From Oscillibacter sp. (GTDB lineage Bacteria; Bacillota; Clostridia; Oscillospirales; Oscillospiraceae): a stretch of 58,907 nucleotides of DNA. This document shows, in pieces, positions 4,026 through 13,230 of the stretch. The DNA lies in assembly GCA_017482345.1 (NCBI GenBank), contig JAFUNB010000010.1, positions 1 to 58,907 of the forward strand. The letters are read 5' to 3'. A program made the position numbers and the translations under genes. Position 1 is the stretch's first letter; each line of letters starts with the position of its first letter. Under the pieces are notes generated by a model. That model worked only from the letters and a program-made list of their open reading frames with translations. It ran no database searches and was not told the origin of the DNA.

Positions 4026-4088
4026 ATCTTGCGCCGGAGAACGGGAAATGATATGATAACTCCGTATACTTTCGATTGGAGACAGCCA

Positions 4089-6749
4089 ATGAAAAAACTG
4101 GTCGTAGGAATATTGGCCCATGTGGACGCGGGTAAAACCACGCTGTCCGAGGCCATGCTATATCGCAGCGGCGCGGTGCGGAAGCTGGGGCGGGTGGATC
4201 ACCAGAACGCCTTTCTGGACACGGACGCCATGGAGCGGGAACGGGGCATTACCATCTTCTCCAAGCAGGCGGAGTTTTCCCTGCCTGAGGCGGACATCAC
4301 CCTGCTGGACACGCCGGGCCACGTGGATTTTTCCGCGGAGATGGAGCGGACGCTGCAGGTGCTGGACTGCGCCATTCTGGTCATCAGCGGCACGGACGGC
4401 GTTCAGGGCCACACTCGGACGCTGTGGCGGCTGCTGGAGCGCTATCATATCCCCACGTTCCTGTTTGTCAATAAGATGGATCTGGCCGGCGCCGACAAGG
4501 CCGCCCTGCTGGAAGGCCTGAAAACCCGCCTTGGCAGCGGCGTCACGGATTTTACCAGCCGGGACGATACCTTTCTGGAGGAGGCCGCCCTGTGCGACGA
4601 GGCGGTACTGGAACAGTTTCTGGAAACCGGCGAGGTATCGGACGACGATCTGACCTGCATGATCGCGGAGCGGAAGCTGTTCCCCTGCTGGTTCGGCTCT
4701 GCGCTGAAGCTGGAGGGCGTGGATGAATTCCTGGAGGGACTGGGACACTTTGCCTCCGCACCCGTCTATCCTGCGGAGTTCGGCGCCCGGGTGTTCAAGA
4801 TCTCCCGGGACGGTCAGGGCAGCCGTCTGACCTGGCTGAAGGTCACCGGCGGTACGCTGCGGGTGAAGGATCTCCTGACCAACCGGCAGGAAGGCATGGC
4901 GGACGACAAGGTTTGGGAGGAAAAGGCAGACCAGCTGCGGATCTATTCCGGCCTGAAATTCCGGCTGGTGGATGAGGCGCCTGCGGGAACGATCTGCGCG
5001 GTTACCGGACTGAGCCGAACCCGCCCTGGCCAGGGACTGGGCGGCGAGACTGCCTGGACGGCGCCGGTGCTGGAACCGGTACTGACTTATCACATTCAGC
5101 TGCCGGAGGGGACGGATCCCCACATGGCGCTGTTGAAGCTGCAGCAGCTGGAGGAGGAAGACCCCCAGCTCCATATCGTCTGGCACGAGCAGCTGCGCCA
5201 GATCCACGCCCAGCTGATGGGCGAGGTGCAGCTGGAGATCCTGCAGCGGCTCATCCGGGAACGCTTTGGTATGGAAATCACCTTCGGTGAGGGTGCGATC
5301 CGCTATCGGGAGACGATTGCGGGCGCAGTGGAGGGCATCGGCCACTTTGAGCCGCTGCGTCACTACGCGGAGGTACATCTGCTGCTGGAACCCGGTGAAC
5401 GGGGCAGCGGTGTGCAGATCTTCACCGCCTGCCCGGAGGACGACCTGGACCGCAACTGGCAGCGGCTGATCCTGACCCATCTGGATGAAAAGGAACATCT
5501 GGGCGTGCTGACCGGCTCGCCCATCACGGATATCAAACTGACGCTGGTGGCGGGCCGGGCCCATGTGAAGCACACGGAGGGCGGCGACTTCCGCCAGGCC
5601 ACTTACCGTGCCGTGCGTCAGGGACTCATGCAGGCGGAGAGTGTGCTGCTGGAGCCCTGGTATGATTTCCGGCTGGAGATCCCCGCCGAGCAGGTGGGCC
5701 GGGCCATGACCGACCTGCAGCGGATGAACGGCGAGATCGAGCCGCCGGAGACTGTGGGCGACGAGACTGTATTCACTGGCGCCGCGCCGGTGGCGGCCAT
5801 GCGGAACTACGCCCGGGAGGTCACAGCCTATACCCGGGGCCGGGGTCGGCTCAGCTGTGTCCTGCGGGGCTATGCACCCTGCGCTCAGCAGGCAGAGGTG
5901 GTGGAGACTATCGGTTACGATCCGGAGCGGGACGTGGACAACACGCCGGACAGCGTGTTCTGCGGTCACGGCGCCGGCTATACGGTGAAGTGGGATGAGG
6001 TGCCCGCTATGGCCCATGTGGACAGCGGTCTGAGGCTGGGCCGGGAACAGGCGGAGGAAGAAAAGGCGCCCGTCCGCCGGGCTGTCCGCTCTTATGCAGG
6101 AACCATTGAGCAGGACAAAGAGCTGCAGGCGATTTTTGAACGGACCTACGGCCCCGTGAAGCAGCGCACCCCACAATCGGGCGGCGCACCGCGGCGCACC
6201 ATTATGGAGCCGGCAGAGAAACGACCCATCCGGCAGCAGCACACGGGACCGGAATACCTGCTGGTGGACGGCTACAACATCATCTTCGCGTGGGACGAGC
6301 TGAAGGCGGTGGCGCAGGACAATCTGGACGCCGCCCGCAAGCAGCTGTGCGACCTGCTGAGCAATTATCAGGGCTTCAGGAAATGCGTGGTCATCGTGGT
6401 GTTCGACGCCTATAAGGTCAAAGGCGGTCTTGGCAGCGTGGAGAAGTACCACAACATCCACGTAGTCTATACCAAGGAGGCCGAGACGGCGGACGCCTAT
6501 ATCGAGCGGGCCACCTATGAGATCGGCCGGAAGCACAGGGTAAAGGTGGCCACCTCCGACGGCCCGGAGCAGCTGATCATTCTGGGTCACGGTGCGCTCC
6601 GTCTGTCTGCCAGCGCCTTCCGGGCGGAGGTAGACGAGACCCTGCGGCAGATCGCCGCCACGCTGGACCGGAACAACCAGGCCGGGAAGACCGGCGCTGT
6701 GAGAGCCGCGATGGAAAAGGCGCGGGACGGCAAGGAGGACGAAGTATGA
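4089..6749 (+). CDS. TetM/EF-G-like translational GTPase fused to a C-terminal Rae1/YacP-type NYN nuclease domain
   Basis: The 886-residue product begins like ribosomal protection proteins: G1 'AHVDAGKTT' (10-18), G2 'RGITI', G3 'DTPGHVDF', G4 'NKMD', then domains II to V ending near 'HGAGYTVKWDEVPAMAHVDSGL' (about residue 650). After a linker, residues 723-870 match Bacillus YacP/Rae1, the ribosome-associated mRNA endonuclease: 'LLVDGYN' (Asp727), 'VVFDAYKVKGG', 'TKEAETADAYIE', 'VATSDGPEQ' and 'GHGALRLSA'. TetM-type factors and Rae1 both act at the ribosomal A site, so a ribosome-rescue or mRNA-cleaving role is inferred rather than tetracycline resistance. The ATG at 4089 is preferred because the protein then starts like TetM. 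The LspA-like gene overlaps the stop codon. Confidence 0.88.
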   Translation: MKKLVVGILAHVDAGKTTLSEAMLYRSGAVRKLGRVDHQNAFLDTDAMERERGITIFSKQAEFSLPEADITLLDTPGHVDFSAEMERTLQVLDCAILVISGTDGVQGHTRTLWRLLERYHIPTFLFVNKMDLAGADKAALLEGLKTRLGSGVTDFTSRDDTFLEEAALCDEAVLEQFLETGEVSDDDLTCMIAERKLFPCWFGSALKLEGVDEFLEGLGHFASAPVYPAEFGARVFKISRDGQGSRLTWLKVTGGTLRVKDLLTNRQEGMADDKVWEEKADQLRIYSGLKFRLVDEAPAGTICAVTGLSRTRPGQGLGGETAWTAPVLEPVLTYHIQLPEGTDPHMALLKLQQLEEEDPQLHIVWHEQLRQIHAQLMGEVQLEILQRLIRERFGMEITFGEGAIRYRETIAGAVEGIGHFEPLRHYAEVHLLLEPGERGSGVQIFTACPEDDLDRNWQRLILTHLDEKEHLGVLTGSPITDIKLTLVAGRAHVKHTEGGDFRQATYRAVRQGLMQAESVLLEPWYDFRLEIPAEQVGRAMTDLQRMNGEIEPPETVGDETVFTGAAPVAAMRNYAREVTAYTRGRGRLSCVLRGYAPCAQQAEVVETIGYDPERDVDNTPDSVFCGHGAGYTVKWDEVPAMAHVDSGLRLGREQAEEEKAPVRRAVRSYAGTIEQDKELQAIFERTYGPVKQRTPQSGGAPRRTIMEPAEKRPIRQQHTGPEYLLVDGYNIIFAWDELKAVAQDNLDAARKQLCDLLSNYQGFRKCVVIVVFDAYKVKGGLGSVEKYHNIHVVYTKEAETADAYIERATYEIGRKHRVKVATSDGPEQLIILGHGALRLSASAFRAEVDETLRQIAATLDRNNQAGKTGAVRAAMEKARDGKEDEV

Positions 6750-7174
6750 TTCTTTCCATTCTGTTGGGCGGCGCCGTGGCGTGTGCCTGTGTGGCAGTCC
6801 GCTGGCGGCTGGACCGGCCGGAGCGGCAGGACAGCGAGCATTTTGGCGGCCGGGTGAAGCTGACCGCTCTGCGGAACTGCGGCTCCGCCTTCGGACTTCT
6901 GCGCCTGACGGCAAACCAGCTGTCCGTCCTGTCGGCGGCACTTCTGGCCTGGAGCCTGACGCTGTGGCGGGAGAGCCGTATTGGCTGCGCACTGGTACTG
7001 GGCGGCGGCTTGAGTAACCTGTGGGAGCGGGTGATGCACGGCAGCGTGTTTGATTACCTTCAGTTCCCCAAAGCGCCGGAAAAGGTGCGGCGGTATGTGT
7101 TCAATCTGGCGGATCTGGCCATTTTCTTCGGCGTCATCGCCGTTGTGCTGGGCGGCCGCAAAAAGAAGCACTGA
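6746..7174 (+). CDS. Signal peptidase II (LspA)-like membrane protein with altered catalytic Asp
   Basis: This 142-residue protein has the LspA plan: 'RNCGSAFG' (43-50), 'GGGLSNLWERVMHGSVFDY' region (86-104) and 'FNLADLAI' (119-126), with membrane helices between them. LspA removes signal peptides from prolipoproteins using two Asp residues, in N-L-x-D-R and N-x-A-D. Here the second Asp is present (Asp123), but the first position is Glu94 (codon GAG at 7025-7027). The protein is also shorter than usual LspA (about 150-170). It overlaps the upstream fusion gene by four bases (ATGA), so the two are coupled. It may be a divergent peptidase or an inactive paralogue. Confidence 0.75.
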   Translation: MILSILLGGAVACACVAVRWRLDRPERQDSEHFGGRVKLTALRNCGSAFGLLRLTANQLSVLSAALLAWSLTLWRESRIGCALVLGGGLSNLWERVMHGSVFDYLQFPKAPEKVRRYVFNLADLAIFFGVIAVVLGGRKKKH

Positions 7175-7180
7175 AACAAA

Positions 7181-7206
7181 AAACAGACGCCGGAAGGCGT
7201 CTGTTT
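7181..7206. terminator. Bidirectional terminator between convergent genes
   Basis: AAACAGACGCC and GGCGTCTGTTT form an 11-bp stem with a GGAA loop between the LspA-like gene (plus) and the sugar isomerase gene (minus). A/T-rich flanks on both sides suit termination in either direction. Confidence 0.85.
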
Positions 7207-7209
7207 TGC

Positions 7210-8136
7210 TTATGCGGTGACTCGCTTCAGCAGGGCGGCGGTCTGTTCCAGTGCGTCCATCAGGGGGATGGTGTAGTCCTCCTGTTCGATGCTCAGGGGG
7301 CCGTCGTAACCCGCTTCCCGGAGAGTCAGCACGAACTGCCGCCACCAGGCCTCGTCGTGGCCGCTGCCGGGGGTGACGAAGTTCCAGGAACGGGTGGCGA
7401 ATTCCAGCACGCCCTTGGTGTCCAGCATGGTGCCGGTGCCGGCAGCTGCCTCCGTGCGCACATCCTTGATGTGGACGTGATAAATGCAGTCGGCCAGGGC
7501 GCGGGTCATGGCCAGCGGATCGGCGCCCATCCAGAACAGATGGCTGGGATCCATGTTGACGCCGATGATGTCGCCCACTTCACCCCGCAGACGGCGCAGG
7601 TTTTCTACGTTGTTCACCAGCTGCCAGCCATGGAACTCCAGAGCGATGCGCTCCACGCCGTGATCGGCGGCCCGGCGGGCCAGCTCTTTCCAGACGGGGA
7701 TGGCGGTGTCCCACTGGTAGCGGAGAATGTCCGCCGTCTCGGGAGGCCAGGAGGTCACGACCCAGGTGGGGGTGCGGTCCTCGGCACAGCCGCCGGGCAA
7801 ACCGCTCATCATGACCACTGTCTTCAAACCCAACTGCTCAGCCAGCTGGAAGGTGCCGGCGGCCACAGCCCGGTCTTTCGCGCCCTTTTCACCGGGGAAC
7901 AGGGGGTTGCCGGAGCAGTTGAGGGCGGAGATGGTGAGATCGTTTGCCGCCAGCGTGTCCAGCAGCTCTGTCCGCTTTCCAGCGTCGGCGGTGAGTGCGT
8001 TCAGGTCGATATGGGGCGCGGGGGACCAGTTGCCGCAGCCCAGCTCCACCTGCTCCAGTCTAAGGCGTTTGCAAACGGCGGCCGCTTCCCGCAGCGGCAG
8101 ATGGGCCAGACTGTCCGTGACCATTCCCAGTTTCAT
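7210..8136 (-). CDS. Sugar phosphate isomerase/epimerase (xylose isomerase-like TIM barrel)
   Basis: The 308-residue product has the AP-endonuclease-2/xylose-isomerase-like fold signature: 'LGMVTDSL' at the N terminus, 'IALEFHGWQ', 'IGVNMDPSHLFWMGADP', 'IYHVHIKDV' and 'LSIEQED' near the C terminus, which supply the Glu, Asp and His metal ligands in this fold. Relatives isomerise or epimerise sugars, inositols or hydroxypyruvate; the substrate here is unknown. The ATG at 8136 follows AGGAGG. It appears to be a single-gene unit, convergent with the LspA-like gene and divergent from the HIT gene. Confidence 0.85.
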   Translation of the reverse strand: MKLGMVTDSLAHLPLREAAAVCKRLRLEQVELGCGNWSPAPHIDLNALTADAGKRTELLDTLAANDLTISALNCSGNPLFPGEKGAKDRAVAAGTFQLAEQLGLKTVVMMSGLPGGCAEDRTPTWVVTSWPPETADILRYQWDTAIPVWKELARRAADHGVERIALEFHGWQLVNNVENLRRLRGEVGDIIGVNMDPSHLFWMGADPLAMTRALADCIYHVHIKDVRTEAAAGTGTMLDTKGVLEFATRSWNFVTPGSGHDEAWWRQFVLTLREAGYDGPLSIEQEDYTIPLMDALEQTAALLKRVTA

Positions 8137-8283
8137 GAGGGTGTCCTCCTGTTGCTTTTTTCTCAGCATAGCACAGGCGGAAAAGAAAATCCAGAGGTTC
8201 TCCTTGACGGAGGCGGCGGGGGAGGAGTATGGTTATGGCAGGGACAAATGGTCCCACAATCTGAAACATACGGAGGAATACCC

Positions 8284-8706
8284 ATGGGCTGCTTTTACTG
8301 CGATGCGCATCACGAGGGCCGCGAGGCTATCATGTTTTATGTGGGCGAGATGAAGGCCTCTACCCTGTATCTGTTCAAGGACCAGGCTCATCTGGGCCGC
8401 TGCGTGCTGGCGCTGAAGGACCACAAGAAGGAGCTGTGCGAGTGCGGCGCTCAGGAGCTGGTTGACTTTGCTGACGATCTGGCAAAGGCTTCCGGTGCTG
8501 TCAAGGAGATCTGGGGCTGCACCAAGCTGAATCTGGCCTCCTTCGGCGACTCCAACCCCCATCTGCACTTCCACATCGTGCCCAAGTATGAGGGTGGCTT
8601 TGAGTTCGGCGGTAACTTTACCATCACCAATCCCAATCCCGTTCATCTCAGCGACGCCGAGTATGCCGGCATGATCGCTGCTTTGAAAGAAAAACTGGGC
8701 ATCTAA
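8284..8706 (+). CDS. HIT family protein
   Basis: The 140-residue protein contains the histidine triad 'HLHFHIV' at about residues 99-105, the active site of HIT nucleotide hydrolases and transferases, and an N-terminal 'CFYC' pair that could bind zinc as in some HIT proteins. The C-terminal region 'FEFGGNFTITNPNPVHLSD' is typical of a clostridial subgroup. The ATG at 8284 follows CGGAGGAA. The precise substrate is not evident. A good terminator follows, so the gene is monocistronic. Confidence 0.88.
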   Translation: MGCFYCDAHHEGREAIMFYVGEMKASTLYLFKDQAHLGRCVLALKDHKKELCECGAQELVDFADDLAKASGAVKEIWGCTKLNLASFGDSNPHLHFHIVPKYEGGFEFGGNFTITNPNPVHLSDAEYAGMIAALKEKLGI

Positions 8707-8719
8707 ACGTTTAGCTTCC

Positions 8720-8748
8720 AAAGTGCGGCAGAAATGCCGCACTTTTTT
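8720..8748 (+). terminator. Rho-independent terminator after the HIT gene
   Basis: AAAGTGCGGCA and TGCCGCACTTT form an 11-bp stem with a GAAA loop, followed by a T tract, 14 bases after the stop codon. Confidence 0.92.
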
Positions 8749-8861
8749 AATTTCGTCAGAATGTAGAAATTTGCGCTTTCCCCTTTTAAATCGATTGCGG
8801 GTGTGATAAAGTGATACGCGGTGAGAATTGGTCCTTTTCAAAGAAAGGTGGTAAATACAAT

Positions 8862-10604
8862 ATGAGAAAAACGAAAATCGTCTGTACACTGGGTCCCGCA
8901 ACCGATAAGGAAGGCGTTCTGCGCGGCATGCTGAAGGCCGGCATGAATGTGGCCCGCTTCAACTTCTCCCACGGCGACCACGCCGGCCACAAGGAGCGTC
9001 TGGACGCTCTGAAGGCCTTGCGGGAGGAGATGGATCTGCCTGTGGCCACCATGCTGGACACGAAGGGTCCCGAGGTCCGCCTGAAGTCCTTCAAGAACGG
9101 CCCTGTGGAGCTGAAGGAGGGTACGGAGTTTGTCCTGCATACCGATCAGGTGGAGGGCGACGAGACCAAGTGTTCCATTACCTATAACGATCTGCCCGGA
9201 GACGTGAAGCCCGGCGACACCATCCTGCTGGACGATGGTCTGGTGCGCATGACCGTGCTGGAGACCACCGACACCACCATCCGCTGCAAGGTGCTCAACA
9301 GCGGCATGATGAAGAACAACAAGGGCGTCAACATCCCCGGCGTCCGTCTGTCCATGCCCTATGTCAGCCAGCGTGACCGGGATGATATCCGCTTCGGTAT
9401 CGAGCAGGGCTTCGACTTTATTGCCGCCAGCTTTGTCCGCACTGCCGCCGATGTCCGCGAGCTGCGCCAGATCCTGGATCAGGCCGGTTCCCACATCCGA
9501 ATCATCGCCAAGATCGAAAACCGTGAGGGCGTCAACAACCTGGCCGATATTCTGGCTGTGGCTGACGGTATCATGGTGGCCCGCGGCGATATGGGCGTTG
9601 AGATCGACTTCACGGAGATCCCCATGATTCAGAAGGATATGATCGCCAAGTGCGTGGCCGCCGGCAAGCCGGTCATCACCGCCACCCAGATGCTGGAGTC
9701 CATGATCGAAAATCCCCGCCCCACCCGTGCGGAGATCACCGACGTGGCCAACGCCATCTACGACGGCACGTCCGCTATTATGCTCTCCGGCGAGACTGCC
9801 GCAGGCGCCTACCCTGTGGAGGCTGTGCAGACCATGCACGCCATCGCCGTGCAGACCGAGGCCAATGTGGACCACTCCAAGACTATGAAGTTCAAGAGCA
9901 AGAAGGAGCGCCTGTCCATTTCCGCCGCTATGGCCCACGCCGCCTGCACCACTGCTGTGGACATCGGCGCCGACGCCATTCTCAGCGTCAGCCAGCGCGG
10001 TATCACCGCTCAGATGGTCAGCCGTTTCCGCCCCAAGACCACGGTTGTGGCGCTGCTGTTGGATGAGCAGGTCCGCCGCCAGATGAGTCTGTATTGGGGC
10101 GTTGAGGCTGTGATGATGCCCCGCGCCAAGAACTCTGACGAACTGGTGGATCTGGCTGTGGAGGCCGCGGAAAAGGCCGGTATCGTCCAGAAGGGCGACC
10201 TGGTGGTCGTCACCGCCGGTGTGCCGGTGGGTATTGCCGGTACCACCAACATGATCCGCGTCAAGCAGGTGGGCGGCTCTCTCATCAACGCCATGGGCGT
10301 CGGTGACCTGAAGGCCAGCGGCCGCCTGTGCGTCTGCCGCACGATCGAGGATATCCAGGAAAAATTTCAGGACGGCGATGTTCTGGTGGTGCCCTACACC
10401 ACCAATGAGATGCTGCCCTGGATCCGCAAGGCTGCCGCCATCATCACTGAGGAGGCCAGCCGGGACTGCCACACCGCAACGGTGGGTCTGGCGCTGGAGA
10501 AACCCGTGATCATTGCAGCTGTGGATGCAAGCCGCCGTCTGCAGGACGGTGTCCGCGTCAGCGTGGACTGCAGCCGCGGCGTTGTGCAGACCATGCCCAA
10601 CTGA
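8862..10604 (+). CDS. pyk: Pyruvate kinase with C-terminal PEP-utilizer-type extension
   Basis: Pyruvate kinase converts phosphoenolpyruvate and ADP to pyruvate and ATP. The 580-residue protein carries 'RFNFSHGDH' near 28, 'TKGPEVR' near 68, 'IIAKIENREG' with the catalytic Lys near 220, and the substrate signature 'ITATQMLESM' with 'PTRAEITDVANA' near 270-295. The last 110 residues form the extra PEP-utilizer mobile-like domain ('VVPYTTNEMLPWI', 'DCHTATVGLALEKPVI') found in Bacillus-type enzymes; the usual phosphohistidine motif is only loosely conserved. The ATG at 8862 follows AAAGGTGG. Pyk and pfkA, two control points of glycolysis, are about 8 kb apart here in separate units. Confidence 0.96.
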   Translation: MRKTKIVCTLGPATDKEGVLRGMLKAGMNVARFNFSHGDHAGHKERLDALKALREEMDLPVATMLDTKGPEVRLKSFKNGPVELKEGTEFVLHTDQVEGDETKCSITYNDLPGDVKPGDTILLDDGLVRMTVLETTDTTIRCKVLNSGMMKNNKGVNIPGVRLSMPYVSQRDRDDIRFGIEQGFDFIAASFVRTAADVRELRQILDQAGSHIRIIAKIENREGVNNLADILAVADGIMVARGDMGVEIDFTEIPMIQKDMIAKCVAAGKPVITATQMLESMIENPRPTRAEITDVANAIYDGTSAIMLSGETAAGAYPVEAVQTMHAIAVQTEANVDHSKTMKFKSKKERLSISAAMAHAACTTAVDIGADAILSVSQRGITAQMVSRFRPKTTVVALLLDEQVRRQMSLYWGVEAVMMPRAKNSDELVDLAVEAAEKAGIVQKGDLVVVTAGVPVGIAGTTNMIRVKQVGGSLINAMGVGDLKASGRLCVCRTIEDIQEKFQDGDVLVVPYTTNEMLPWIRKAAAIITEEASRDCHTATVGLALEKPVIIAAVDASRRLQDGVRVSVDCSRGVVQTMPN

Positions 10605-10619
10605 ATCTTACAATAAATA

Positions 10620-10655
10620 AACAGGAGCTCCGACCAACCGGTCGGAGCTCCTGTT
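10620..10655. terminator. Bidirectional terminator between pyk and mgtE
   Basis: AACAGGAGCTCCGACC pairs perfectly with GGTCGGAGCTCCTGTT (16 bp, AACC loop) between the convergent pyk and mgtE genes. A run of A/T on each side suggests it serves both. Confidence 0.9.
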
Positions 10656-10662
10656 ATGTTTG

Positions 10663-12120
10663 TTATATGCCAAGAATGGAGGAGGCGATCTCGAAATAGA
10701 TCAGCAGGGACAGGGCGTCTACGATGGTGGTGATGAAGGGGGAGGCCATGACCGCCGGGTCAAAGCCGATCTTTTCCGCCAAAATCGGCATGGCACAGCC
10801 CACCAGCTTGGCGCACAGCACCGTGCAGACCAGCGTGGCGCAGACCACGAGAGCCACCCAGACGGTGACGTCGGGGTTGTTCAGCAGCATGCGGTCCACC
10901 AGCATCATTTTGATGAAGTTGGCGCCGGCCAGACAGACACCGCAGCACAGGGACACCCGCAGTTCTTTCCACAGGACGTGGAACAGATCGGAGAAGCGGA
11001 CCTCGTCCAGCGACAGAGCGCGGATGACGGCCGTGGAGGCCTGGGTGCCGCTGTTGCCGCCGGTACCGGACAGCATGGGGATGAAGCTGGTCAGAATGGC
11101 GCAGGACATAAGGGCGGATTCAAAGTGCGTCAGAATGATGCCGGTAAAGGTGGCGGACAGCATCAGCATCAGCAGCCAGGGTGTGCGGGCCTTCCAGGTC
11201 TCAAAGACGCCGGTTTTCAGATAGGGCTTGTCGGAGGGCAGCATAGCCGCCATCTTTTCGAAGTCCTCGGTGGTCTCTTCTTCGATAACGTCCATGGCGT
11301 CGTCCACCGTGACGATACCCACCAGACGGTTTTCGGTATCTACAACGGGCAGAGCCAGGAAGTCGTACTTGCTCAGAGCCTGGGCAGTGGTCTCCTGGTC
11401 GTCCAGCGTCTGGACGGCGATGAGACTCTTTTCCATGATCTCACCGATGATATCGTCCTCCTCCGCCAGCAGCAGGCGGCGAATGGACAGGTAGCCGATC
11501 AGATGGCGGCGCTCATCGATGACATAGCAGACGTTGATGGTCTCCTTGTCGGGAGCGGTGCGGCGGATACGCTTTAAGGCGTCCTCCACCGTCATATTCT
11601 CCTTCAGATCCACAAACTCCGTGGTCATGATGCTGCCGGCGGAGTCCTCGGGATACTTCAGGATCTCGTTGATGCTCTTGCGGGTATCGGGATCGGTGTG
11701 CTTCAGGATGCGGGTGACCACGTTGGCGGGCATTTCTTCCACCAGGTCAACGGCGTCGTCCAGATACAACTCGTCCAGAACTTCCTTCAGCTCGGCGTTG
11801 GAGAAACCCTGAATCAGCATCTGCTGCTGATCGGATTCCAGCTCCACGAATACCTCTGCGGCCAGCTCCTTGGGCAGCAGACGGAACAACAGGGGGATCT
11901 GATCGTTATTCAGATCGCCGAACAGTATACCGATATCCGGAGCCTCCAGCGGGGACAGGAGGTCACGCAGGTCTGCATACTGTTTTCGGGAAAGCAGTTC
12001 CTCAACCGTTTCCAGAATGTCGTCCAGACGTTCTTCCACGTTTTCCATATCCTCGTATACGTCTTCGTATACGTCTTCGATCATTTCTTCCAGTTCCTGA
12101 TCAGTCATGTTTTCTGCCAT
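10663..12120 (-). CDS. mgtE: Magnesium transporter MgtE
   Basis: MgtE is a homodimeric, magnesium-gated Mg2+ channel. The 485-residue product shows the MgtE N domain after an acidic N-terminus ('EDVYEDVYEDMENVEER'), the linker 'DPDTRKSINEILKYPEDSAGSIMTTEF', a CBS pair (about 150-275) and five C-terminal membrane helices with 'SGTGGNSGTQASTAVIRAL', the conserved pore region. The acidic and CBS domains close the pore when cytosolic magnesium is high. The gene is preceded by an M-box riboswitch leader and its own promoter, so magnesium is expected to control transcription as well. Confidence 0.95.
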   Translation of the reverse strand: MAENMTDQELEEMIEDVYEDVYEDMENVEERLDDILETVEELLSRKQYADLRDLLSPLEAPDIGILFGDLNNDQIPLLFRLLPKELAAEVFVELESDQQQMLIQGFSNAELKEVLDELYLDDAVDLVEEMPANVVTRILKHTDPDTRKSINEILKYPEDSAGSIMTTEFVDLKENMTVEDALKRIRRTAPDKETINVCYVIDERRHLIGYLSIRRLLLAEEDDIIGEIMEKSLIAVQTLDDQETTAQALSKYDFLALPVVDTENRLVGIVTVDDAMDVIEEETTEDFEKMAAMLPSDKPYLKTGVFETWKARTPWLLMLMLSATFTGIILTHFESALMSCAILTSFIPMLSGTGGNSGTQASTAVIRALSLDEVRFSDLFHVLWKELRVSLCCGVCLAGANFIKMMLVDRMLLNNPDVTVWVALVVCATLVCTVLCAKLVGCAMPILAEKIGFDPAVMASPFITTIVDALSLLIYFEIASSILGI

Positions 12121-12153
12121 GGTGCAGACCTCCTTTCCTTTGGTCGGTCGGGC

Positions 12154-12190
12154 AAAATAAAAAAATCCCCAATCGTCCCGTCCGGTCGAT
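12154..12190 (-). terminator. Probable expression-platform terminator of the mgtE leader
   Basis: Minus strand: ATCG-A-CC and GG-GA-CGAT arms (12172-12190) form an imperfect stem, followed by TGGGGA and a seven-T run (about 12160-12167). It lies between the M-box aptamer and the mgtE ribosome binding site, where magnesium-dependent termination would occur. Confidence 0.5.
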
Positions 12191-12235
12191 CAGAGAAAAT
12201 ACCCCCTTGGCTTCTGCCGGAAAACCACAGTTTTC

Positions 12236-12405
12236 CGCTTACCGTTCAAGCTTTAGCGTCACAAGGCGGTGAAATCGCATTAGATGATACCTTCGTGTTC
12301 GATATCGCCTGTTCAAACCCTCTCATGATGTCTCCATCACTCTGCGGCAGCGATCCATATCCCTGTGGTAGCCTTACCTACCGGACCATGTTCAGTTTTG
12401 CTCAC
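12236..12405 (-). ncRNA. M-box (ykoK) magnesium riboswitch upstream of mgtE
   Basis: On the minus strand the leader contains the M-box landmarks in order: GGTAGGTAAGGCTACC (12367-12382, consensus UAGGUGAGGCUCC), GGGATATGGAT followed by GCTGCCGC, and GACGCTAAAGCTTGAACGG (12242-12260, consensus GUGCUAAAGCUCUACGA). These are the conserved core elements that bind several Mg2+ ions. The leader starts at a good promoter and runs into mgtE. Family identification is by motif reading, not by covariance scoring. Confidence 0.85.
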
Positions 12406-12412
12406 TGTGTTT

Positions 12413-12441
12413 ATATTATGCCAAAAAAAACGTGCTGTCAA
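12413..12441 (-). promoter_or_regulatory. Promoter of the M-box-mgtE transcript
   Basis: Minus strand -35 TTGACA (12436-12441), 17-base spacer, -10 TAATAT (12413-12418); predicted start near 12406, immediately before the M-box. Confidence 0.8.
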
Positions 12442-12486
12442 GGCGCAGAGGATGGGCGGAAAGGAATTTTCTGAACCGAAAATGAC

Positions 12487-12515
12487 TTGTGGGGCATGGC
12501 GCTCCGTGATATAAT
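12487..12515 (+). promoter_or_regulatory. Promoter of radC
   Basis: -35 TTGTGG (12487-12492), 17-base spacer and perfect -10 TATAAT (12510-12515), about 47 bases before the radC start. Confidence 0.7.
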
Positions 12516-12561
12516 ATGATATTCCGAAAAAATTGCGTTTTTGCGTGCGGGAGGGGCAAAT

Positions 12562-13230
12562 ATGGGAATTCATGACGGCCACCGGGAGAAGATGCGCCAG
12601 CGGTTTTTGAAGGGCGGACTGGAGAATTTTGCCGACCATGAAGCGCTGGAGCTGCTGCTGTATTACGCCATCCCCCGGCGGGACACCAACCCCATCGCCC
12701 ACGCGCTGATGGAGCGGTACGGCTCCCTGTCTGCGGTGCTGGCGGCACCGGCGGACGACCTGAAAAAGGTGGAGGGTATCGGCGAGAGCGCGGCCGTGCT
12801 GTTGAAGCTGGTGCCCCAGCTGACGCAGAAGGCGCGGCTGGCTGAGGCGGAGCGGGTGCTGAACTCCTCGGACCGGGCCGGCGCATATCTGCTGGATCTG
12901 TTCTCCGGCCAGACGCATGAGGTGGTCTATGTGCTGTGTCTGGACCGAAAGGGAAAGCTCATCACCCACAAGCGGCTGGGGGAGGGCGGTATTTCCTCCG
13001 CGGGACTGGATATCCGGAAACTGGTGGAGTGTGCCATTCTATCCTCCGCCAGCGCAGTCATTCTGGCCCACAACCACCCCAGCGGCATCGCCCTGCCCTC
13101 CAACGACGATTTTGCCGCCACAGACCGGGCCAGAGAGGCGCTGAAGAATATTGATGTGCAGCTGGCAGACCATATCATTGTGGCGGACGGGGACTTTGTG
13201 TCACTGGCCGATTCCGGATACCTTACATAA
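12562..13230 (+). CDS. radC: RadC family JAMM/JAB-domain protein
   Basis: The 222-residue protein has an N-terminal helix-hairpin-helix-like part ('KKVEGIGESAAVLLK', about 70-84) and a C-terminal JAB/MPN domain with the zinc metalloprotease motif 'HNHPSG' plus downstream Asp (about 172-184), the canonical RadC layout. The biochemical role of RadC remains uncertain despite its historic link to DNA repair. The ATG at 12562 follows GGGAGGGG. It is followed within 82 bases by uvrB, but a separate promoter and SOS-like site lie between them. Confidence 0.93.
   Translation: MGIHDGHREKMRQRFLKGGLENFADHEALELLLYYAIPRRDTNPIAHALMERYGSLSAVLAAPADDLKKVEGIGESAAVLLKLVPQLTQKARLAEAERVLNSSDRAGAYLLDLFSGQTHEVVYVLCLDRKGKLITHKRLGEGGISSAGLDIRKLVECAILSSASAVILAHNHPSGIALPSNDDFAATDRAREALKNIDVQLADHIIVADGDFVSLADSGYLT

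Follow-up and report, generated by a model that had tools for sequence, protein, structure and literature searches.

A Tet/EF-G-type GTPase fused to a YacP/Rae1 NYN nuclease domain in Oscillibacter: a probable Rae1 of these Clostridia

The window analyzed here is a stretch of 58,907 nucleotides from Oscillibacter sp. (contig JAFUNB010000010.1 of assembly GCA_017482345.1), belonging to a 1.63-Mb draft genome that comprises 42 contigs and is 72% complete. On its forward strand, a single open frame runs from the ATG at 4089 to the stop at 6749 and codes for a protein of 886 aa, in which a complete EF-G/Tet-type GTPase is followed by a C-terminal extension, a linker and a YacP/Rae1 NYN nuclease domain. 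As this is one frame and all its Pfam domains score above their cut-offs, the fusion of a TetM-type GTPase to a Rae1/YacP domain that the first-pass annotation had read at this position is real. The mechanical ORF list begins the frame at a TTG at 4029; the starts of the relatives favor the ATG at 4089. The features of the locus are as follows:

4089..6749, + strand: fused gene (translational GTPase, extension, linker and NYN_YacP), with 112 distinct fused relatives collected
4101..4742, + strand: GTPase (G) domain, GTP_EFTU, residues 5-218 (Pfam E 3.8e-50)
4779..5288, + strand: domains II and III, residues 231-400 (EF-G_D2 231-311, EFG_III 329-400; Pfam)
5295..5636, + strand: domain IV, EFG_IV, residues 403-516 (Pfam)
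5553..5594, + strand: domain IV loop III, residues 489-502, GRAHVKHTEGGDFR (alignment)
5643..5891, + strand: domain V, EFG_C, residues 519-601 (Pfam)
5892..6023, + strand: GTPase C-terminal extension, residues about 602-645 (SVFCGHGAG...W635; alignment)
6024..6254, + strand: linker, residues 646-722, with a conserved ELxxIFExTYG-type stretch at about 678-688 (alignment)
6258..6704, + strand: NYN_YacP nuclease domain, residues 724-872, with D727, D773, D802 and D824 (Pfam E 2.7e-49)
4029..4057, + strand: promoter-like TTGCGC-17-TATGAT, found by eye and not in the consensus-scan list
6746..7174, + strand: LspA-like (Peptidase_A8) gene overlapping the stop of the fused gene (Pfam E 1.2e-20)

The GTPase residues K16, H78, K129 and D131 are conserved in all rows of two sets of fused proteins (38/38 and 72/72), and N128 in 71 of the 72 rows of the second set (alignment A4). 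The ATG lies 31 nt downstream of the promoter-like element, and comparable sequences were seen by eye in six of 12 upstream regions inspected (from 17 tried); the consensus scan gave two sites, both on the − strand, and no + strand promoter. If the element is the promoter used, only about 25 nt would precede the ATG, leaving no room for a leader peptide. The gene is neighbored by those for a phosphofructokinase, a ThrE exporter, a NUDIX hydrolase, the LspA-like protein, MgtE and RadC, as on a core chromosome. Relatives of the LspA-like gene occur at 10 other loci, all of them close relatives of the window; its overlap with the stop makes translational coupling to the fused gene possible, and it probably lies outside the latter's function. 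No conserved operon was seen around the fused genes, the widest neighbor cluster, by eye an ABC-transporter ATPase, recurring at 11 of 106 loci. Another contig of the same genome (C37, locus L130) differs from window positions 5695-13139 by one mismatch in 7445 bases; we rejected it as a paralogous second copy, the near-identical overlap being a redundancy of the draft assembly.

An NYN_YacP match within a frame of at least 671 aa is present in 35 of the 36 other genomes of the genus, the single one without it being 73% complete, and in four of the 23 other genomes of the order. The genus-wide presence and the 112 distinct fused proteins argue that the fusion is neither a chance arrangement nor a chimera. 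Among the matches listed for the C-terminal half, the best named one is from an uncultured Dysosmobacter (80% identity), followed by Oscillibacter and Flavonifractor drafts, with Intestinimonas and Pseudoflavonifractor listed as well, and a full-length relative in a Monoglobus record is annotated as a 'translation factor GTPase family protein'. The contig scan used two patterns, one of them also able to match a stand-alone NYN domain, and took in 80 of 593 confirmed stretches.

The distribution of the architecture across Clostridia, which the first-pass annotation had named as a check, was searched in a class sample of 147 genomes (own genome included) and in a phylum sample of 398. The NYN_YacP domain occurs in 100 of the 147, namely the own genome, 53 others with the fused form (one of which, G517, matches profile positions 1-75 only) and 46 with a stand-alone protein of 168-216 aa; the remaining 47 lack any NYN_YacP. 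Twelve of the 53 fused matches cross one stop codon, which in the three compared (G460, G190 and G124) is the gene's own end. One fused gene, in G492 (L252), is split into two frames of 584 and 351 aa, either as a pseudogene or through an error of sequencing. Of the 398 genomes of the phylum sample, 219 have an NYN_YacP match, with one match each save three: the own genome with its redundant contig, G264, where two stand-alone copies score equally, and G357, where the match lies in two pieces at the ends of contigs. G562, G589 and G590 each have, within a frame of 163-165 aa, an additional piece of about 47 residues that resembles NYN_YacP and scores below the cut-off.

Whole fused genes are rare in mobile-element collections, with places covering 80% of the protein in only two of 72,556 plasmid records and two of 50,697 phage records. 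Two unannotated records labeled 'UNVERIFIED Bacteriophage sp.' (MT835563.1 and MT835514.1; L279 and L280) encode proteins related to the fused one over its whole length (62% and 50% identity), and are probably bacterial DNA rather than instances of phage carriage. At an E-value of 0.001, the fused protein matched no family among the PADLOC models, and the idea of an anti-phage system was dropped on that account.

A profile spanning domain IV to the extension (A1) recovers the same GTPase subfamily in all 53 fused genomes and in eight further ones, which together code for nine NYN-less copies in frames of 655-729 aa; its lower-scoring cluster (about 91-124 bits) consists of EF-G, other Tet-type factors or fragments, judging by length and by two inspected cases. 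Four of the eight genomes lack any NYN_YacP, indicating that the GTPase has a role of its own, and the other four, all of family f31, possess a stand-alone NYN_YacP. One genome, G548, carries two NYN-less GTPase copies (L249 and L250) plus a stand-alone NYN_YacP. A general partnership between a separate Rae1 and a separate GTPase was considered and set aside as weak, such pairs being found in four of the 46 stand-alone genomes, all of them in f31.

The fused and stand-alone forms are mutually exclusive: none of the 147 genomes has both, where 16.6 would be expected if the two were independent (53 fused with the own genome left out, 46 stand-alone). The hypergeometric probability of such a zero overlap is 5e-12 with phylogeny ignored, and the class sample could mostly reflect a few events. 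The genomic location of the stand-alone gene offers a further view of this exclusion. By eye, RlmB is encoded directly upstream of rae1 at 12 of 15 loci, with none by the rule used at the other three, and profile tests confirmed RlmB at two loci (L260 and L258) and SigH at five. Within the class sample, both forms are present in three families, f182, f177 and f178. In f182, the stand-alone genome G499 has the order rlmB-rae1-sigH and the fused genome G562 has rlmB-sigH; likewise in f177, G538 (stand-alone) has rlmB-rae1-sigH and G469 (fused) rlmB-sigH. In f178, the fused G470 again shows rlmB-sigH, and rae1 is immediately followed by sigH in four stand-alone genomes, two of which have rlmB 1.8 to 3 kb off; in the other two, rlmB was not found in the stretch examined.

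All three states of this site occur within one genus, in which seven of 11 genomes have an open fused form and four an open stand-alone form. Among the three of the 11 whose rlmB-sigH site was inspected, rae1 is intact in G499, decayed in G474 and absent from G562. The decayed copy (L277:3596-4160) lies between rlmB and sigH in a fused-gene genome that is a single contig and 100% complete; the site with its flanks aligns at 71% identity over 764 columns with 62 gaps, and the copy has no frame open beyond 49 codons and no DGYN. In the own genome (G000) and in G013, G058, G124 and G575, rlmB has other neighbors than sigH, and the empty-site comparison is silent there; in the own genome, rlmB is on contig C22 and the fused gene's window on C17. 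As yacO (rlmB) and rae1 are adjacent in Bacillus subtilis (PMC6613710, in the part used here), we infer that the stand-alone gene is probably the older state. The fused form thus appears to have taken the place of stand-alone Rae1 in these bacteria.

A tree of 76 NYN domains (38 fused and 38 stand-alone, from the best-scoring loci) divides the two groups by one branch with a support of 99/96; a warning accompanied the joining of two long fused rows, L109 and L129. A quick tree of the GTPase, with 39 fused and nine NYN-less rows, recovers one change each at SH-aLRT values of only 54 and 90, and many of its rows differ in make-up. A single origin of the fusion would fit both trees, of which that of the GTPase is the weaker.

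The NYN part scores 167.8 bits against the NYN_YacP profile (curated cut-off 24.6), matches the solved B. subtilis YacP (PDB 5mq8/5mq9) with an E-value of about 4e-24, and shares 40% identity with the stand-alone Rae1 of G499. The YacP/Rae1 motifs and the intact active site read from the sequence at the outset are right: D727, D773 and D802 are present in 72 of 72 aligned fused proteins and D824 in 71 of 72 (A4). All four are likewise kept in 38/38 of the other fused set, so that the loss of acidic residues in relatives, proposed as a sign against the reading, did not appear. We take these four, positioned by alignment, to be the acidic residues of the NYN active site. Beyond them, G728, Y729, N730, R750, F772, A801, I805, E806, V820, Q828 and G835 are, like D727, D773, D802 and D824, fixed in all 38 fused and all 38 stand-alone proteins. 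Two further positions are invariant in the stand-alone group and variable in the fused one: R838 and E843 are found in 38/38 stand-alone proteins each as against 21/38 and 19/38 fused ones, with the window protein having an alanine at position 843. In the second fused set, which is close to the window, R838 is kept in 69/72 and E843 in 31/72, placing the loss of R838 in one fused branch and pointing to a wide relaxation of E843. We posit that a docking or recognition contact might have become less important once the GTPase brings the NYN domain.

The distance from W635 to the NYN domain is 76-127 residues (median 87) in the 112 fused proteins, 86 of which display an LxxIFxxxYG-type stretch in the linker; the NYN-less relatives end ahead of it. 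Judging from length alone, a linker of some 80 residues should have sufficient reach, and a clash with domain IV would be the likelier limit. The retention of the fusion across many families with such a linker and its conserved stretch speaks against the proposal that the two halves act separately, with an EF-G-like accessory GTPase and an NYN domain that matures rRNA or tRNA or cuts free RNA being joined for co-expression only. This proposal draws on the occurrence of NYN-less GTPases and of stand-alone Rae1 each without the other, as well as on an earlier suggestion of rRNA and tRNA maturation for NYN_YacP (cited in PMC4342817, as excerpted). Given also that B. subtilis Rae1 is reported to be an endonuclease acting in the ribosomal A site (PMC6613710 and PMC12320835, in the sections drawn on), we consider it unlikely.

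The resemblance of the GTPase to tetracycline-protection factors holds at the level of the fold. Among the matches listed, tet(M), tet(O), tet(W) and tet(S) are 28-31% identical to it over residues 1-597. The best NCBIfam match is the general Tet model NF012153, at 397.5 bits with a cut-off of 775; other Tet models are likewise below theirs (NF033148, 258.6/1100; Tet(M), 220.7/1420; Otr(A), 325.9/900), and so is the EF-G equivalog TIGR00484 (277.4 bits, cut-off 659.4). The tip of loop III reads AHVKHTEGGDF as against YYSPVSTPADF in tet(W), with K494, H495 and T496 conserved in 72/72 rows and H492 in 71/72, and loop I of domain IV is two residues shorter than in tet(W). The NYN-less sisters share this tip and also the C-terminal extension, which is absent from tet(W). 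Thus, the label 'TetM-like' in the first-pass annotation stands for the fold; it does not extend to the family, given scores far below every Tet cut-off listed and a different domain IV tip.

These comparisons bear on the published proposal, as given in Atkinson 2015 (PMC4342817), that such proteins are tetracycline ribosomal protection factors whose nuclease adds to resistance. It accords with the shared domain order and with the general Tet model outscoring that of EF-G. Loop III of domain IV has been implicated in tetracycline displacement, and Tet(M) variants with S508A, or even S508A P509A V510A, can be active (excerpt of PMC4750697), so that a changed tip does not by itself rule out protection. 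With scores that reach at most about half of the cut-off of the general Tet model and a different domain IV tip that is common to the NYN-less sisters, protection is disfavored; the scarcity of the gene in plasmid and phage records also counts against this proposal, and we regard it as very improbable.

Rather, we favor the view that the fused protein is the Rae1 of these Clostridia, that is, a housekeeping endonuclease that depends on the ribosome to cleave mRNA and is attached to a translational GTPase; the genomic comparisons make this probable. The mutual exclusion, the single group formed by the fused forms in the NYN tree, and the intact, decayed and absent states of the rlmB-sigH site argue for it, and the conserved catalytic residues and the A-site action reported for B. 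subtilis Rae1 add further support. The NYN-less GTPase relatives in eight genomes and the 47 genomes without any NYN_YacP weigh on the other side. B. subtilis Rae1, among whose known targets are the spyTA and bmrCD mRNAs, is not known to need a GTPase, which we also count against this equivalence.

A related possibility, to which we give little credence, is that of a stress- or drug-responsive factor, not a general Rae1, that cleaves mRNA where A-site antibiotics or collisions have stalled the ribosome. The joining of a Tet/EF-G-type GTPase to an A-site type of nuclease would suit such a function, and the suppression of a B. subtilis efp mutant by a rae1 mutation links Rae1 to paused ribosomes (PMC6613710, in the part consulted). 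However, the fused form replaces the housekeeping gene of the rlmB-sigH site, is nearly universal in the genus, and would lack room for a leader peptide if the promoter-like element is used. The antibiotic response envisaged in the first-pass annotation gained no support, and its interpretation holds in part, for the fusion, the motifs and the active site.

For the favored Rae1 equivalence, we infer that the best mechanism is still the one put forward in the first-pass annotation, a nuclease brought to the ribosome. The GTPase would bind in the factor site when the ribosome's A site is empty or slow, and its histidine- and lysine-rich domain IV tip may then probe the decoding center. GTP hydrolysis would then let domain IV withdraw, upon which the tethered NYN domain could cut the mRNA in or beside the A site, leaving the mRNA to decay and the ribosome to pass to rescue. 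Because domain IV and the NYN domain would have to occupy the same space, they probably act one after the other. More tentatively, and with rather less than even confidence, we suggest a GTP-clocked mRNA endonuclease, in which GTP hydrolysis times or proofreads NYN cutting and so restricts cleavage to A sites that are slow or empty; such a gated form might have displaced the ungated stand-alone Rae1 in many Clostridia, and more than once within families holding both.

What is new here is the evidence that the fusion displaces stand-alone Rae1, the architecture itself having been in print since 2015. On this evidence, a gene that had been suspected of conferring resistance is likely to encode a housekeeping factor of mRNA decay. 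Cutting of mRNA in the A site is generally attributed to small nucleases that act on their own; Rae1 as a nuclease of this kind was the subject of a 2017 paper, later than the Atkinson 2015 text. With a nuclease and a ribosomal GTPase in one polypeptide, it becomes possible to test directly whether factor binding and mRNA decay are linked. A genus in which rae1 is either intact or, in genomes with a fused gene, decayed or absent amounts to a natural replacement experiment. For annotation, these core fused genes resemble tetracycline resistance genes and, on present evidence, should not be counted as such.

Within the literature on the fusion and on Rae1 that was covered, the fusion is described in PMC4342817 only. 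According to that paper, a YacP-like NYN RNase domain was gained by the Tet proteins of ten Clostridiales species, for which antibiotic resistance by way of an RNase is suggested. By that description, our protein belongs with these, having the same layout of a Tet/EF-G-type GTPase and then a YacP-like NYN domain; it differs in that what was read there as possible resistance is seen here to exclude and apparently replace stand-alone Rae1. With B. subtilis Rae1/YacP it shares the NYN_YacP domain and the same acidic residues, and the two forms never occur together in the genomes searched; unlike the B. subtilis protein, which stands alone beside rlmB (yacO), it is part of an 886-aa fusion with rlmB on another contig. 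It has the same five GTPase-factor domains as Tet(M), Tet(O) and Tet(W) but other domain IV loops I and III and another C-terminal extension, and the Tet proteins have no nuclease. Finally, the NYN-less GTPases of the same subfamily have the same tip loop and the same C-terminal extension, and differ in ending where the linker of the fused protein would begin.
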